Assembly: GCF_001715295.1 (NCBI RefSeq)
Contig: NZ_MDKB01000004.1
Span: 186,001-250,000 of the forward strand
Direction of reading: 5' to 3'
DNA length: 64,000 nucleotides
Source of the DNA: Streptomyces griseus
GTDB lineage: Bacteria > Actinomycetota > Actinomycetes > Streptomycetales > Streptomycetaceae
Shown here: positions 5,938 through 60,995 of the stretch, piece after piece
How the letters are laid out: each line of letters opens with the position of its first letter
Position numbering within the stretch: position 1 is the stretch's first letter
Program-made: the position numbers and the translations under genes
Notes under the pieces: model-generated
The model's database searches: none
Seen by the model: the letters and a program-made list of their open reading frames with translations, nothing else
What the model was told of the DNA's origin: nothing

Positions 5938-6010
5938 GCGGACGTAGCTCAGTTGGTAGAGCGCAACCTTGCCAAGGTTGAGGTCGCCAGTTCGAACCTG
6001 GTCGTCCGCT
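5938..6010 (+). tRNA. tRNA-Gly (GCC)
   Basis: A full cloverleaf: acceptor GCGGACG pairs with CGTCCGC, D arm GCTC...GAGC, anticodon stem CAACC/GGTTG with loop TTGCCAA (anticodon GCC), and T arm with TTCGAAC. Discriminator base T. The 3' CCA is not encoded. First of five tRNAs in a single array. Confidence 0.97.
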
Positions 6011-6047
6011 CGCAGAAGGTGGGGGATCTTCCCGAACCCTCATCCGT

Positions 6048-6121
6048 GGTGGAGTGGCCGAGAGGCGAGGCAACGGCCTGCAAAGCCGTCTACACGGGTT
6101 CAAATCCCGTCTCCACCTCCA
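6048..6121 (+). tRNA. tRNA-Cys (GCA)
   Basis: Acceptor GGTGGAG pairs with CTCCACC; the anticodon stem ACGGC/GCCGT encloses loop CTGCAAA (anticodon GCA); the T loop is TTCAAAT. Discriminator T is followed by an encoded CCA (6119-6121). Only two bases separate it from the next tRNA. Confidence 0.96.
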
Positions 6122-6122
6122 A

Positions 6123-6194
6123 GGACGATTAGCTCAGCGGGAGAGCACTTCCCTGACACGGAAGGGGTCACTGGTTCAATCCCAGTATCGTCCA
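6123..6194 (+). tRNA. tRNA-Val (GAC), copy 1
   Basis: Acceptor GGACGAT/ATCGTCC, D arm GCTC/GAGC, anticodon stem CTTCC/GGAAG with loop CTGACAC (anticodon GAC), T loop TTCAATC. Discriminator A. The body is identical to copy 2 but the acceptor stem differs. Confidence 0.96.
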
Positions 6195-6213
6195 CCGGTC
6201 CGCAAGGACCCCC

Positions 6214-6285
6214 GCGCGATTAGCTCAGCGGGAGAGCACTTCCCTGACACGGAAGGGGTCACTGGTTCAATCCCAGTATCGCGCA
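6214..6285 (+). tRNA. tRNA-Val (GAC), copy 2
   Basis: Same body as copy 1 with acceptor GCGCGAT/ATCGCGC. The anticodon loop is CTGACAC. Discriminator A. Placed 19 bases after copy 1. Confidence 0.96.
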
Positions 6286-6308
6286 CGCAGTACACGCAGG
6301 TCCGTCCC

Positions 6309-6380
6309 GCGCGATTAGCTCAGCGGGAGAGCGCTTCCCTGACACGGAAGAGGTCACTGGTTCAATCCCAGTATCGCGCA
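6309..6380 (+). tRNA. tRNA-Val (GAC), copy 3
   Basis: Acceptor GCGCGAT/ATCGCGC as in copy 2, with small changes in the D-arm/anticodon junction (GAGCGC) and variable region (AGAGGTC). Anticodon GAC. The array terminator follows after 6 bases. Confidence 0.96.
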
Positions 6381-8919: not shown

Positions 8920-9086
8920 TAAGGGGTGTCCCGCAATCCCCGGTGGATCAGCGTGCGGCGTCAGATGCGGTGCATCGCAAGGCGGAGGGACGTCCGCATA
9001 CGGGATGTATGGGGACGTCCTGACAACGCGGCGAGGTGCCGTAGCTGTCGTCGCACGCCCGCCGGGAATTGCCGGGGCAGCCCTTA
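8920..9086. repeat. inverted-repeat element family 1, copy A
   Basis: A 167-bp element whose left end (TAAGGGGTGTCCCGCAATCC) and right end (reading inwards TAAGGGCTGCCCCGGCAATT) are imperfect inverted repeats. The interior shares long identical stretches with copies B and C (for example ACAACGCGGCGAGGTGCCGT). No transposase is inside. The right terminal TTA supplies the TAA stop codon of the minus-strand gene at 9084-9335. Confidence 0.85.
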
Positions 9087-9335
9087 AGGGGTGTCCCCGA
9101 GGGGACGCTCGGAGGCGTCCTCGCGGGGGACCGGCTGTTCGACCAGGGCGAGCACCCTGGTCGCCATGAAGCGGGCGGTACGGACAACTGATCCACTTCT
9201 GGTGACTTCACTCACTTCGACCACCCCTCTGCGGACCGCTGTCTCCACCCGGCGGCCTGCTCTGGAGGCCACCACCTCGTACGTCCGTGTCGTGTCCCCG
9301 GCGTCCACGACTATTTCCACACGATCGCCCTTCAC
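9084..9335 (-). CDS. small conserved protein of unknown function, stop codon in a repeat
   Basis: 83 residues from GTG 9335 with GGGGG about 10 bases upstream. The sequence begins VKGDRVEIVVDAGDTTRTYEV and continues with R/V/E-rich beta-strand-like stretches (GRRVETAVRRGVVEVSEVTR). It looks like a compact all-beta protein, not membrane-associated. I cannot name a domain. The frame ends at a TAA formed by the terminal TTA of repeat copy A, so the last few codons (about SERPLGDTP) may have been altered by the element. It is divergent from the Ser/Thr kinase. Confidence 0.75.
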   Translation of the reverse strand: MKGDRVEIVVDAGDTTRTYEVVASRAGRRVETAVRRGVVEVSEVTRSGSVVRTARFMATRVLALVEQPVPREDASERPLGDTP

Positions 9336-10953: not shown

Positions 10954-11118
10954 AAGGGCTGTCCCGCAGTTCCCGGTGGATCAGCGCGCGGCGTCGGATG
11001 CGGTGCGTCGCACGGCGGAGGGGCGTCCGCATACTGGATGTACGGGGACGTTCCGACAACGCGGCGAGGTGCCGTAGCTGTCGTCGCGCGCCCGCCGTGA
11101 AGTGCGGTGGAGCCCTTA
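10954..11118. repeat. inverted-repeat element family 1, copy B
   Basis: 165 bp, left end AAGGGCTGTCCCGCAGTTCC and a degraded right end (GAAGTGCGGTGGAGCCCTTA). The interior matches copies A and C closely. The right terminal TTA (11116-11118) is the TAA stop codon of the SpoU methyltransferase gene on the minus strand. It separates that gene from the convergent Ser/Thr kinase. Confidence 0.85.
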
Positions 11119-33907: not shown

Positions 33908-33980
33908 GAGCCTGTCGGCGCCTCGGAAGCGTGCGTGCCGGACCACGTCCGCTCGATCAGAGGTCACCCGACAGGCCCTC
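33908..33980. repeat. family 2 inverted-repeat element, short copy at argR
   Basis: 73 bp bounded by GAGCCTGTCGG (33908-33918) and CCGACAGGCCCTC (33968-33980). The interior GGAAGCGTGCGTGCCGG is shared with the family 2 element at 57286-57612. Its right end runs into the TGA of argR (33979-33981). Confidence 0.7.
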
Positions 33981-34515
33981 AGACGTCGTTCTGCGCCAGC
34001 CGCAGCAGATGGTCGGCCAGCGCCTGCCCGCCGGCCGGGTCACGGCTGATGAGCATCAGCGTGTCGTCGCCCGCGATCGTGCCGAGGATCGCCTGGAGTT
34101 CGGCCTGGTCGATGGCGGAAGCGAGGAACTGGGCGGCGCCCGGCGGGGTGCGCAGCACCACGAGGTTGGCCGAGGCCTCCGCGGAGATCAGCAGCTCCGC
34201 GGAGAGCCGGCGCATCCGTTCCTCCTTCGCCGACCCGCCGAGCGGCGCCTGCGGGGTGCGGAAACCGCCCTCGCTGGGCACCGCGTAGATCAGCTCGCCG
34301 CCGGTGTTGCGGATCTTCACCGCGCCGAGTTCGTCGAGGTCGCGGGAGAGGGTCGCCTGGGTGACGCTCAGCCCGTCGTCGGCGAGGAGCCTGGCGAGCT
34401 GGCTCTGCGACCGCACCGGCTGCCGGTTCAGGATGTCCACGATCCTGCGGTGGCGCGCCGTGCGGGTCTGCGGCACCGACGGCCCGCCGTGGTCGGTCTC
34501 GTGCGCCTCGTTCAT
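33979..34515 (-). CDS. argR: arginine repressor
   Basis: 178 residues. The N-terminal winged helix ([40 protein letters not shown]) and the C-terminal oligomerisation and arginine-binding domain ([36 protein letters not shown] with the GDDT arginine contact) are typical of ArgR/AhrC. As a hexamer with arginine it binds paired ARG boxes. It is the last gene of argC-J-B-D-R, 10 bases after argD, so the operon encodes its own repressor. Confidence 0.96.
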
Positions 34516-57285: not shown

Positions 57286-57612
57286 GAGCCTGTCTGCTGA
57301 CCTGCGACCGGAAAGCGGACGCGGTCCGGTGCGTGCGATCCCAAGACGCCGGAAGGCGCTCGTAGCGGAGCTAAGGGCTGTCCCGCAATTCCCGGTGGAT
57401 CAGCGTGCGGCGTCAGACGCGGGGCATCGCAAGGCGGAGGGACGTCCGCATACTGGATGTATGGGGACGTTCCGACAACGCGGCGAGGTGCCGTAGCTGT
57501 CGTCGCACGTCCGCCGGGAAGTGCGGGACAGCCCTTTCGTGGGCGTTTCGGCAACGCGGGAAGCGTGCGTGCCGGGGCGTGGCCGCTCGGTCGGATGTCA
57601 GCCGACAGGCTC
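57286..57612. repeat. family 2 inverted-repeat element interrupted by a family 1 element
   Basis: Ends GAGCCTGTCTGCTGACC (57286 on) and, inverted, GAGCCTGTCGGCTGACATCC (ending 57612) are imperfect terminal repeats. Family 1 copy C (57372-57537) sits inside; without it the element is 161 bp. The short copy by argR shares GGAAGCGTGCGTGCCGG. Its right end abuts the TGA of the TrmH-type gene (57613-57615). Confidence 0.75.
57372..57537. repeat. inverted-repeat element family 1, copy C (nested)
   Basis: 166 bp with the best-preserved ends: TAAGGGCTGTCCCGCAATTC at 57372 and, inverted, AAAGGGCTGTCCCGCACTTC ending 57537. The interior agrees with copies A and B at most positions. It is inserted in a family 2 element and has the same orientation relative to the upstream minus-strand gene as A and B. 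Confidence 0.88.
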
Positions 57613-58452
57613 TCAGGCCGTGGGACGCGGGCGCTGGGCCCGTGCGGAGGCGTACAGGCACACGGCGGCGGCGGTGGCGAGATTGAGGCTTTCCGCCTTG
57701 CCGTGGATCGGGACCCGGACCACCGCGTCGGCCAGCGCCCTGGTCTCTTCCGGCAGCCCCCAGGCCTCGTTGCCGAAGACCCAGGCGGTGGGCCCTCCCA
57801 TGGTGGCCGCGTCGAGCTCGTCGTCGAGGTCGTCGTCGCCGGCGCCGTCGGCCGCGAGGATGCGCACGCCGGCGGCGCGCAGTCCGCGCACGGCCTGCTC
57901 GACGGGTACGCCGACGGCCACCGGAAGGTGGAAGAGCGAACCGACGGAGGCGCGGACCGACTTGGGGTTGTAGAGGTCGACGGACGCGTCGGTCAGCACC
58001 ACGGCGTCCGCGCCGGCGGCGTCCGCGCAGCGCAGCACCGTGCCGGCGTTCCCGGGGTCGCGTACGTGGGCGAGGACGGCGACCAGGGTGGGCTTCGCGG
58101 CGAGGATGTCCTCGAAGGGCGAGTCCAGGAAGCGGCAGACACCGATGAGGCCCTGCGGGGTGACCGTCTGCGAGACCTCGGCCAGGACGTCGGCGTCGGC
58201 GAGGTGCACGCGGGCCCCCGCGGCACGGGCCGCGTCGATGATGGCGGCGTACCGCTCGGCCGCCTCGACGGTGGCGAAGAGCTCGGTGAGGGTGGGCTGC
58301 CCGTCGCTGCCCCGGTGCCCGGCGGCCTCCCGCACGGCCTGCGGCCCCTCGGCGATGAACCTGCGCTCCTTGCCGCGGAAGTTGCGCCGGGCCAGCCTGC
58401 GTGCGGCGGCGACACGCGGCGATCGCGCGGAGATCAGTTCGGGGGTGGCCAT
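57613..58452 (-). CDS. TrmH/SpoU-family RNA 2'-O-methyltransferase
   Basis: 279 residues from ATG 58452. It has an N-terminal substrate domain (RRFIAEGPQAVREAAGHRG) and a SPOUT domain: motif 1 LAHVRDPGNAGTVLRCADAAG, motif 2 WVFGNEAWGLPEETRALADA, motif 3 VPIHGKAESLNLATAAAVCLY. The Arg in VLRCA, Glu in FGNEAWG and Asn in SLNLA are the expected key residues. The target is 23S rRNA or tRNA; not determinable. Read downstream of infC-rpmI-rplT on the same strand, but separated by a terminator. Confidence 0.9.
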   Translation of the reverse strand: MATPELISARSPRVAAARRLARRNFRGKERRFIAEGPQAVREAAGHRGSDGQPTLTELFATVEAAERYAAIIDAARAAGARVHLADADVLAEVSQTVTPQGLIGVCRFLDSPFEDILAAKPTLVAVLAHVRDPGNAGTVLRCADAAGADAVVLTDASVDLYNPKSVRASVGSLFHLPVAVGVPVEQAVRGLRAAGVRILAADGAGDDDLDDELDAATMGGPTAWVFGNEAWGLPEETRALADAVVRVPIHGKAESLNLATAAAVCLYASARAQRPRPTA

Positions 58453-60077: not shown

Positions 60078-60244
60078 GGATCCTCCTCGGTAGCACCACG
60101 CGACCGCCTGGCGGACAGCCGCGTAACGTCTGTTTGTGTAGGGACCAACCGAGCCGGGAGACGAAAAATGCCCCGGACGGGACACAGGCGGGGCTCCTGG
60201 AAATACCGGAACACCGTCGCGTGCAACCGCGGGGCGCATCGGGC

Positions 60245-60330
60245 GGCTCCGATCGTCCGTACGGAACGATGGGCGCCACCTGACCGGTGACCCGCCGTCC
60301 CGGAGGACGGTCAGGTGGGAGATCGGAGCC
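60245..60330 (-). ncRNA. structured 5' leader of infC
   Basis: Two nested perfect stems: GGCTCCGATC (60245-60254) with GATCGGAGCC (60321-60330), and CCACCTGACCG (60276-60286) with CGGTCAGGTGG (60308-60318). Together they form one long bulged hairpin in the leader between the promoter and infC. It may control premature termination or L20 binding. No known Rfam class was recognised by eye. Confidence 0.6.
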
Positions 60331-60376
60331 TCCACTTGTGGGCCGAGCACATAGGTGTCCGGCCGGTCGTTACACA

Positions 60377-60468: not shown

Positions 60469-60834
60469 ATGAGTGACGCGCCCACCCCCAGCACCGAGAA
60501 CCCCGGCTTCGACGCCATGGCCCGCGACATCGCGGAGGTCCCCGCGGTCGAGGTGATCGTGACCGTCGCGGTCAACCTGATGAGCGCGGCAGCCGTGAAG
60601 CTCGGGCTGACCGAGGAGGGCGAGCAGCACAAGGACCTCGACGAGGCCCGCAAGCTGGTCCAGGCCCTGGCCGGGCTGCTCGACGCGAGCGCCACGGAGA
60701 TCAGCACCTTCCACGCCTCCCCCCTGCGCGACGGCCTGAAGTCGCTCCAGCTGGCGTTCCGCGAGGCTTCGCTCGTCCCCGACGAGCCGGGGAAGGGGCC
60801 CGGGGAGAAGTACACGGGCCCCGTCTACGGCTGA
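60469..60834 (+). CDS. DUF1844 protein
   Basis: 121 residues from ATG 60469. The core IAEVPAVEVIVTVAVNLMSA, AAVKLGLTEEG and DLDEARKLVQALAGLLDASA matches DUF1844, a small helical protein family common in actinobacteria next to infC. The function is unknown. It is divergent from infC. Its TGA (60832-60834) is followed at once by repeat copy D. Confidence 0.9.
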   Translation: MSDAPTPSTENPGFDAMARDIAEVPAVEVIVTVAVNLMSAAAVKLGLTEEGEQHKDLDEARKLVQALAGLLDASATEISTFHASPLRDGLKSLQLAFREASLVPDEPGKGPGEKYTGPVYG

Positions 60835-60995
60835 GGGCTGTCCCGCGGGTCCCGGCGGCCGCGCGACGACCGCTGCGGCACCTCGCCGCGTCGGTCGAAC
60901 GTCCCCACACGTCCGGAACACGGACGTCGCTCCGCCGCGTGACGCACCCACCACGTCCCCCGCACGACGATCCAGCGGTAAGGCGGGACGGCCCG
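60833..60995. repeat. inverted-repeat element family 1, copy D (degenerate, inverted)
   Basis: 163 bp. Read against the other copies in reverse, it keeps GGGCTGTCCCGC, CGGCACCTCGCCGCGT, GAACGTCCCCA, GGACGTCGCTCCGCC and a terminal GGCGGGACGGCCC. It starts inside the TGA of the DUF1844 gene. After inversion its orientation relative to the upstream gene is the same as for A, B and C. Confidence 0.7.

Follow-up and report, generated by a model that had tools for sequence, protein, structure and literature searches.

In a 64,000-nt stretch of a Streptomyces griseus contig (NZ_MDKB01000004.1, positions 186,001 to 250,000, hereafter the window), four copies of one short repeat are present, and three of them end precisely within the stop codon of a protein coding gene. 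An earlier note on this DNA considered three such junctions unlikely by chance, and proposed either that the repeat targets stop-like sequence or that it is kept at gene ends for a function at the 3' end of the RNA. Here I ask what kind of element this is, how often it lies at stop codons, and whether it made those stops, was selected to stay there, or simply had few other places to go.

Four copies in the window

The core of copy A comprises 163 nt on the plus strand (8922-9084, 160 bits, ends reading CTA...TAA), or 8920-9086 when the flanking TA dinucleotides at 8920-8921 and 9085-9086 are included. Its right end lies in the gene for a conserved protein of 83 amino acids on the minus strand (9084-9335, start codon inferred), which has no Pfam match, though homologs do occur in relatives. 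The TAA stop of this gene (9084-9086, minus strand) takes its T and A from the target and its final A from the end of the element, so that the TTA seen on the plus strand is indeed that stop. Copy B (core of 162 nt, 10955-11116, plus strand, 151 bits) is flanked by CA, a decayed TA, on the left and by TA on the right, and the core ends, as the earlier note had it, in the TAA (11116-11118, minus strand) of a gene of the SpoU_methylase family (PF00588; 11116-11934, minus strand). Copy D is decayed (about 162 nt, 60834-60995, minus strand, 70 bits), and its first base is the final A of the TGA stop (60832-60834, plus strand) of a DUF1844 gene (PF08899 by Pfam; 60469-60834, plus strand, start codon as called). 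Copy C (162 nt, 57374-57535, plus strand) is located at a TA within another repeat and not at a stop. The window also contains a cluster of five tRNA genes (5938-6380, plus strand) and, near copy D, an Rfam match to the Streptomyces sRNA Scr1601 (60163-60371, minus strand).

A dispersed family of short elements without genes

A total of 1.585 Mb of the 6.87-Mb genome was examined, comprising the entire contig C11 (714,640 nt), 80 kb of C8 and stretches selected around known copies and matches to the end repeat. Scanned with a profile built from 30 copies, this sequence gives 82 hits at E <1e-3. Contig C11 accounts for 23 of these, and scaling up from it predicts about 220 copies in the genome, or about 140 if only the 15 near-full ones are scaled. 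The main set used below consists of 56 near full-length copies scoring >100 bits; seven of the 63 near-full copies, copy D among them, score <=100 bits and were left out. As an independent set I took 43 stretches from other genomes, one genome per species, in which both end repeats occur without mismatch at the spacing of the element. All 43 are titled Streptomyces, as is every one of the 50 plasmid records that match the element, which is common in Streptomyces.

The consensus is a core of 162 nt that is almost its own reverse complement, with TA on either side: it runs from C-TA through AGGGCTGTCCCGCA to TGCGGGACAGCCCT and TA-G, where the outer C and G are the commonest flanks. The element therefore has the terminal inverted repeats of a miniature inverted-repeat transposable element (MITE) as well as the short core without a transposase gene, and an overlap of >40 nt with a called gene is seen for none of the 56 copies of this genome and for one of the 43 of the independent set.

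Duplication of the target TA is apparent from the flanks and from two comparisons of filled and empty sites. The repeat that hosts copy C is itself present in multiple copies in this genome (part of it shows as the direct repeat D9, at 57374-57616 and 33925-33982 of the window). Two unfilled paralogous repeats align without gaps and read GAGC-TA-CGTGG, with a third aligning more loosely, while the filled site reads GAGC-TA-core-TT-CGTGG; the TA was therefore duplicated, with one later change. In the second comparison the same codon is TAA in the filled locus L250 and TAG in the empty locus L234, in an alignment judged by eye. TA is kept on both sides in 16 of the 56 copies, and their reconstructed target is CTAG in eight, GTAG in four, CTAA in two and ATAG in two; in the independent set, 33 of the 43 stretches read CTA before and TAG after the element. 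Decayed ends that are not used as stops read TGA in 19 cases and CAA in 12.

Stop codons at the junctions

For gene calling I trained a phased Markov finder on the sequence of this genome; it yielded 1292 genes and is conservative, with 76% of bases called coding. Their stops are TGA in 1057, TAG in 169 (13%) and TAA in 66 cases. When a junction is defined as exact if the last base of the stop coincides with the first or last base of the core, 21 of the 56 copies have an exact junction with a called stop, against only two copies with a stop elsewhere within 12 nt (one 5 nt off, the other 1 nt off). As the gene at copy A was missed by the finder, this copy is counted among the divergent gaps below; with copy A included, the number becomes 22/56. 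In the independent set 26 of the 43 copies have an exact junction and two others a stop within 12 nt. All 26 junction stops are TAA, which follows in part from the selection of this set for exact ends. Against an even spread over 25 offsets, the binomial probability is 1e-27 for this genome and 2e-34 for the independent set, so the coincidence of the junctions with stop codons is beyond chance, and the enrichment holds for further copies both in this genome and in other Streptomyces.

Element-free orthologs

If the element had created these stops, relatives without it should lack them at the same position. From the 22 junction genes (the 21 above and that of copy D) I picked 12 that by eye looked likely to be conserved, and read 60 of the loci matched in twelve relatives; no copy of the MITE was found in these at E <1e-3. 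Four of the twelve genes had no ortholog in these loci. For seven genes, 57 orthologs could be aligned to the end, and their last residue is mostly identical to that of the junction gene. Their stops are TAG in 34, TGA in 18 and TAA in five, to be compared with TAG in 169 of 1292 genes genome-wide (Fisher p 2e-15, the relatives not being mutually independent). TAG ends 10 of 12 orthologs of S-AdoMet synthetase, five of eight of Pup (both named by Pfam), five of six of C8:1324651 and all three of C8:571552. The orthologs of C9:1703128 are split evenly (six TAG, six TGA), those of C8:331671 nearly so (three TAG, four TGA), and those of DUF1844, the gene at copy D, have TGA in seven of nine and TAG in two. 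An eighth gene, C11:526838, did not align to the end and was left out of the 57; its three orthologs end in TGA, and their inclusion would make the TAG count 34/60. For the gene at copy A, 24 of 29 loci from relatives gave a match, and 14 of these 24 end in TAG. In 12 of the 14, the TAG directly precedes a downstream block that is also present after copy A here.

Judging from these alignments, the element mostly did not make the gene ends at which it lies, and many relatives without it carry TAG at the very codon of the junction. The claim that the element supplies the stop thus stands only in the sense that a TAG has been rewritten to TAA, and the stronger version, that it created the stop, is contradicted by orthologs that mostly stop at the same place without it. 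Copy B is a possible exception, as its five closest SpoU relatives (82-89% identical) are two residues longer, with TGA as their stop, so that this copy may have shortened its gene slightly. At locus L227, too, the ortholog in this genome is about two codons longer, with TGA (by eye). One could accordingly suppose that at some sites the element inserted into coding DNA, gave an early TAA, and left a shortened gene that survived, which would be compatible with the main explanation given below. With the orthologs of seven junction genes, S-AdoMet synthetase and Pup included, mostly ending at the same residue, and with 12 of 24 relatives of gene A showing TAG in the corresponding position, ahead of the shared downstream block, I consider this rather unlikely.

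A likely transposase

A duplicated TA initially suggested an IS630 element as partner, which would make the repeat a MITE of the IS630/Tc1 type, like RUP, ERIC or Correia. The TA duplication, the size and the hairpin are all compatible with this, and the available text of PMC2229807 links RUP to IS630-Spn1 and to insertion at TA. At locus L262, moreover, related repeats, GAGGCTGTCCCGTAA, enclose an IS630-type gene and are themselves flanked by CTA and TAG. However, that IS630 element has repeats of its own, TACTGAGGTTGTCCGGGTGT, and has split a transposase gene of the IS5 type, pieces of which lie on either side. Among the matches listed, 31 of 51 loci with PF13358 have clear TA-bounded repeats, and these read TTGATCCGAAAC or similar. 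Stray matches to the MITE ends (<=3 mismatches) occur in 16 of these 31 loci, with a single pair around a gene (L194), which has no TA outside. The IS630 elements of these 51 loci thus carry other ends, those of the MITE directly flank genes of apparent IS5 family instead, and the idea of an IS630 partner was dropped; I hold it to have almost no chance of being right. The DUF4096-type group of IS5 was also considered as partner, and no locus had the MITE repeats around its gene. It was nevertheless through a DUF4096-type locus (L291) and the IS630 locus L262, both of which hold parts of the element sought, that the transposase was reached.

The clearest case is L304, in another Streptomyces, where the repeats AGGGCTGTCCCGC surround a transposase open reading frame in an element of 1.55 kb with CTA and TAG outside; the transposase is 88% identical. 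This is an autonomous-type element with the ends of the MITE, though outside its own genome. Five further loci (L319, L320, L325, L327 and L330, about 0.87-1.36 kb) have transposase genes of probable IS5 family between AAGGG(C/T)TGTCCCGTAA repeats, and L319, L325 and L327 share with L304 the flanking CTA and TAG, a target of the YTAR/CTAG type. The transposases of L291 and L325 match PF01609, PF13359 and PF13613 above cut-off. The best NCBIfam model is that of the IS5 family (NF033581), at 111.3 bits and under its cut-off of 140. Past the terminal 13-16 nt, the MITE and L304 have nothing clear in common. The genome of the window encodes five homologs of this transposase. No end repeat was found within 1.5 kb of any of them at <=4 mismatches of 16, and the two longest share 53% and 69% identity with the protein of L304. 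Mobility in this genome may be over, or may depend on an unseen partner copy. Considering the shared ends, an IS5-family transposase likely moves the MITE.

Long open frames overlap both borders of the element at L325, one of them with what is presumably a recombinase-like end; the transposase therefore probably does not require a stop codon. Beside the transposase, at L304:2362-2913 and L291:1785-2189, there is a divergent open reading frame whose protein begins (M/V)NRPLLFLDVDGPLN, and which I take to resemble a HAD-type passenger gene.

Occupancy of CTAG sites

CTAG is scarce in this genome: outside the copies, C11 contains 71, whereas 1926 are expected from composition, a depletion of about 27-fold. 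When copies are compared to unoccupied CTAG sites by context, the ratio is 21:21 at stop codons, 8:12 in convergent gaps, 19:58 in tandem gaps, 8:52 in divergent gaps and 0:15 within genes (171 free sites in total, 13 of which lie at the edges of stretches and count in the total only). These ratios have relative meaning only, as the sites come in part from stretches selected around copies, and GTAG or ATAG was the target in some cases. The share of copies at stops (21/56) exceeds that of free CTAG (21/171) with p 1e-4, or p 2.5e-5 with copy A included (22/56), and so does the share in the independent set (26/43, p 4e-10). Occupancy is not significantly different between stop and convergent sites (p 0.59, on small numbers), and taken together these two are more often occupied than other contexts (p 3e-5), a pattern that the loss of harmful insertions would leave.

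The enrichment at stops fits a combination of target choice and purifying selection, and the higher share of copies at stops may reflect some additional preference for gene ends. One need not invoke targeting of stops as such, though it may contribute, the difference between 21:21 and 8:12 being non-significant. The proposal that the element targets stop-like sequence was close: the TAG stop is among the few harmless places near genes that contain CTAG, but the actual target is TA, preferably CTAG.

The mechanism I propose is as follows. An IS5-family transposase (DDE_Tnp_1/DDE_Tnp_4 with HTH_Tnp_4) would recognise the terminal repeat AGGGCTGTCCCG(C/T)A and insert the MITE at a TA dinucleotide, preferably within CTAG, with duplication of the TA. 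As both ends of the element start with A, any in-frame TA ahead of it reads TAA, and a copy that enters a stop codon of the form TAG (or TAA) leaves the protein unchanged and merely swaps TAG for TAA. The TAA at the junction can later mutate to TGA. With CTAG scarce, especially inside genes, and with harmful insertions being lost, the survivors would collect at stops and in gaps on the 3' side of genes. TAG stops would be the place of accumulation because CTAG near genes exists there and insertion is harmless, and selection rather than targeting would be the cause of the pile-up. Taken together, the repeat is very probably a non-autonomous MITE of the IS5 type that inserts at TA, preferably at CTAG, and often exactly in a TAG stop.

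Folding of the repeat

Alternatively, the element could be retained at gene ends as a portable terminator or a stabiliser of the 3' end, acting through an RNA hairpin. Both strands fold very stably (copy C at -121.8 and -96.8 kcal/mol, z -12.6 and -9.0), the same strand folds better in 53 of the 56 copies, and the copies do prefer the 3' sides of genes, with 26 of the 43 independent ones at stops. Pairing in the alignment is also slightly above that of shuffled alignments: 93.2% of cells pair, against 92.7% after shuffling (0/500 reach it), 27 cells show two-sided changes against 17.9 (0/500), the covariation score is 0.082 against 0.073 (1/500), and nine pairs show a two-sided change against 5.8 (29/500). 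However, related sequences can beat every shuffle, and a single variable pair near the ends (columns 15 and 159) contributes 15 of the 27 two-sided cells, where the ends of a transposon are expected to match. At pairs whose two arms match in the consensus, changes to G-U, which keep the pairing, are found in 69 cells, fewer than the 99 with A-C, which break it (by pair, on the better-folding strand, 13 vs 28, p 0.03). On that strand seven consensus pairs are G-U, and A-C is rare at those seven (5 cells). That stop CTAGs and convergent non-stop CTAGs show no significant difference in occupancy (p 0.59, small numbers) also speaks against such a role. An orientation bias relative to the gene, with five copies in the same and 17 in the opposite direction in this genome, was discarded, as it is not repeated in the independent set (16 vs 10).

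The suggested function at the RNA 3' end thus finds its arms pairing slightly above the shuffles, but pairing-keeping changes are not commoner and stop CTAGs are not significantly more occupied than convergent ones. As far as alignments can tell, support for pairing being kept for a role in RNA is weak and mixed, without a convincing sign, and I regard a portable terminator or stabiliser as very improbable. There is likewise only a slim chance that the family has been co-opted as a portable, two-way module for 3' ends, in which case insertion into TAG would have been favoured since hairpin and TAA together improve termination of translation and transcription. If this were true, selection, beyond target choice, would have placed the element behind the genes for S-AdoMet synthetase and Pup.

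Relation to known elements

MITEs of the IS5 type at CTAG (PMC3189936), the CTAG target of IS5 itself (PMC5493358) and stop codons encoded by a repeat in BOX elements (PMC3049150) are already known from the accessible text of these papers. Among the matches listed from the open-access papers searched, none describes a Streptomyces MITE of this family or an exchange of TAG for TAA by a transposon. Among the closest known systems is MITEPsy1 of Pseudomonas syringae, likewise a small MITE and associated with ISPsy2 of the IS5 family, which inserts at CTAG or YTAA; according to the same partial text it differs in a 4-nt duplication, a length of 100 nt and six copies, whereas the Streptomyces element duplicates TA, is 162 nt long and has 140-220 copies by extrapolation, and the available parts do not mention a stop-codon pattern (PMC3189936). 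IS5 of Escherichia coli has the target Py-T-A-Pu with CTAG as its commonest form, a word under-represented in bacterial genomes (PMC5493358, excerpts). Its CTAG-type target resembles that of the Streptomyces element, but it is autonomous with a 4-nt duplication, and the two are likened here by target only and not by ends.

BOX elements in Streptococcus pneumoniae encode the stop at the extreme 3' end of 36 genes, and the available portion of that study found truncation not strongly evidenced; BOX repeats differ in being modular, and a CTAG target or an exchange of TAG for TAA is not mentioned in that portion (PMC3049150). RUP, ERIC (RU-1) and Correia are short hairpin MITEs as well, and RUP and the enterobacterial units also duplicate TA (PMC2229807, PMC2759123, both in part), but RUP has, by the same partial account, an IS630-type partner, and the Streptomyces IS630 elements examined have other repeats of their own. 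QMITE2 of Coxiella burnetii lies mainly in the 3' untranslated regions of open reading frames, as far as the accessible text goes (PMC10969869), but belongs to a separate family and is comparable in location bias only.

These observations explain simply how an element with many copies can come to lie exactly at the stops of conserved genes: its target word is nearly absent from coding DNA except at TAG stops, and the end base of the element restores the stop on both strands. They also caution that a repeat which supplies a stop need not imply function or truncation, and add one more force able to swap TAG for TAA in high-GC genomes. The set of junctions is clean natural material for asking whether a strong hairpin at the 3' end alters expression.

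Minor observations

A different element of about 200 nt, with the inverted ends CTAGTGCTGCGTCAG, lies directly past the stop of a gene at L250:1636-1838, and occupies the site where L234 carries the MITE family, so that one place has received two families. The region G000:C8:1616492-1619327 contains a young copy between two diverged ones, which are separated by about 2.7 kb and share the same 12-nt flanks, an arrangement that is probably a segment duplication. Miniature deletion derivatives that retain both end repeats measure 36, 55 and 60 nt (L183:659-694, G000:C12:571208-571262 and G000:C9:705803-705862, respectively) and may be the smallest mobile forms of the element; in that of 36 nt, the CTA and TAG flanks are intact.
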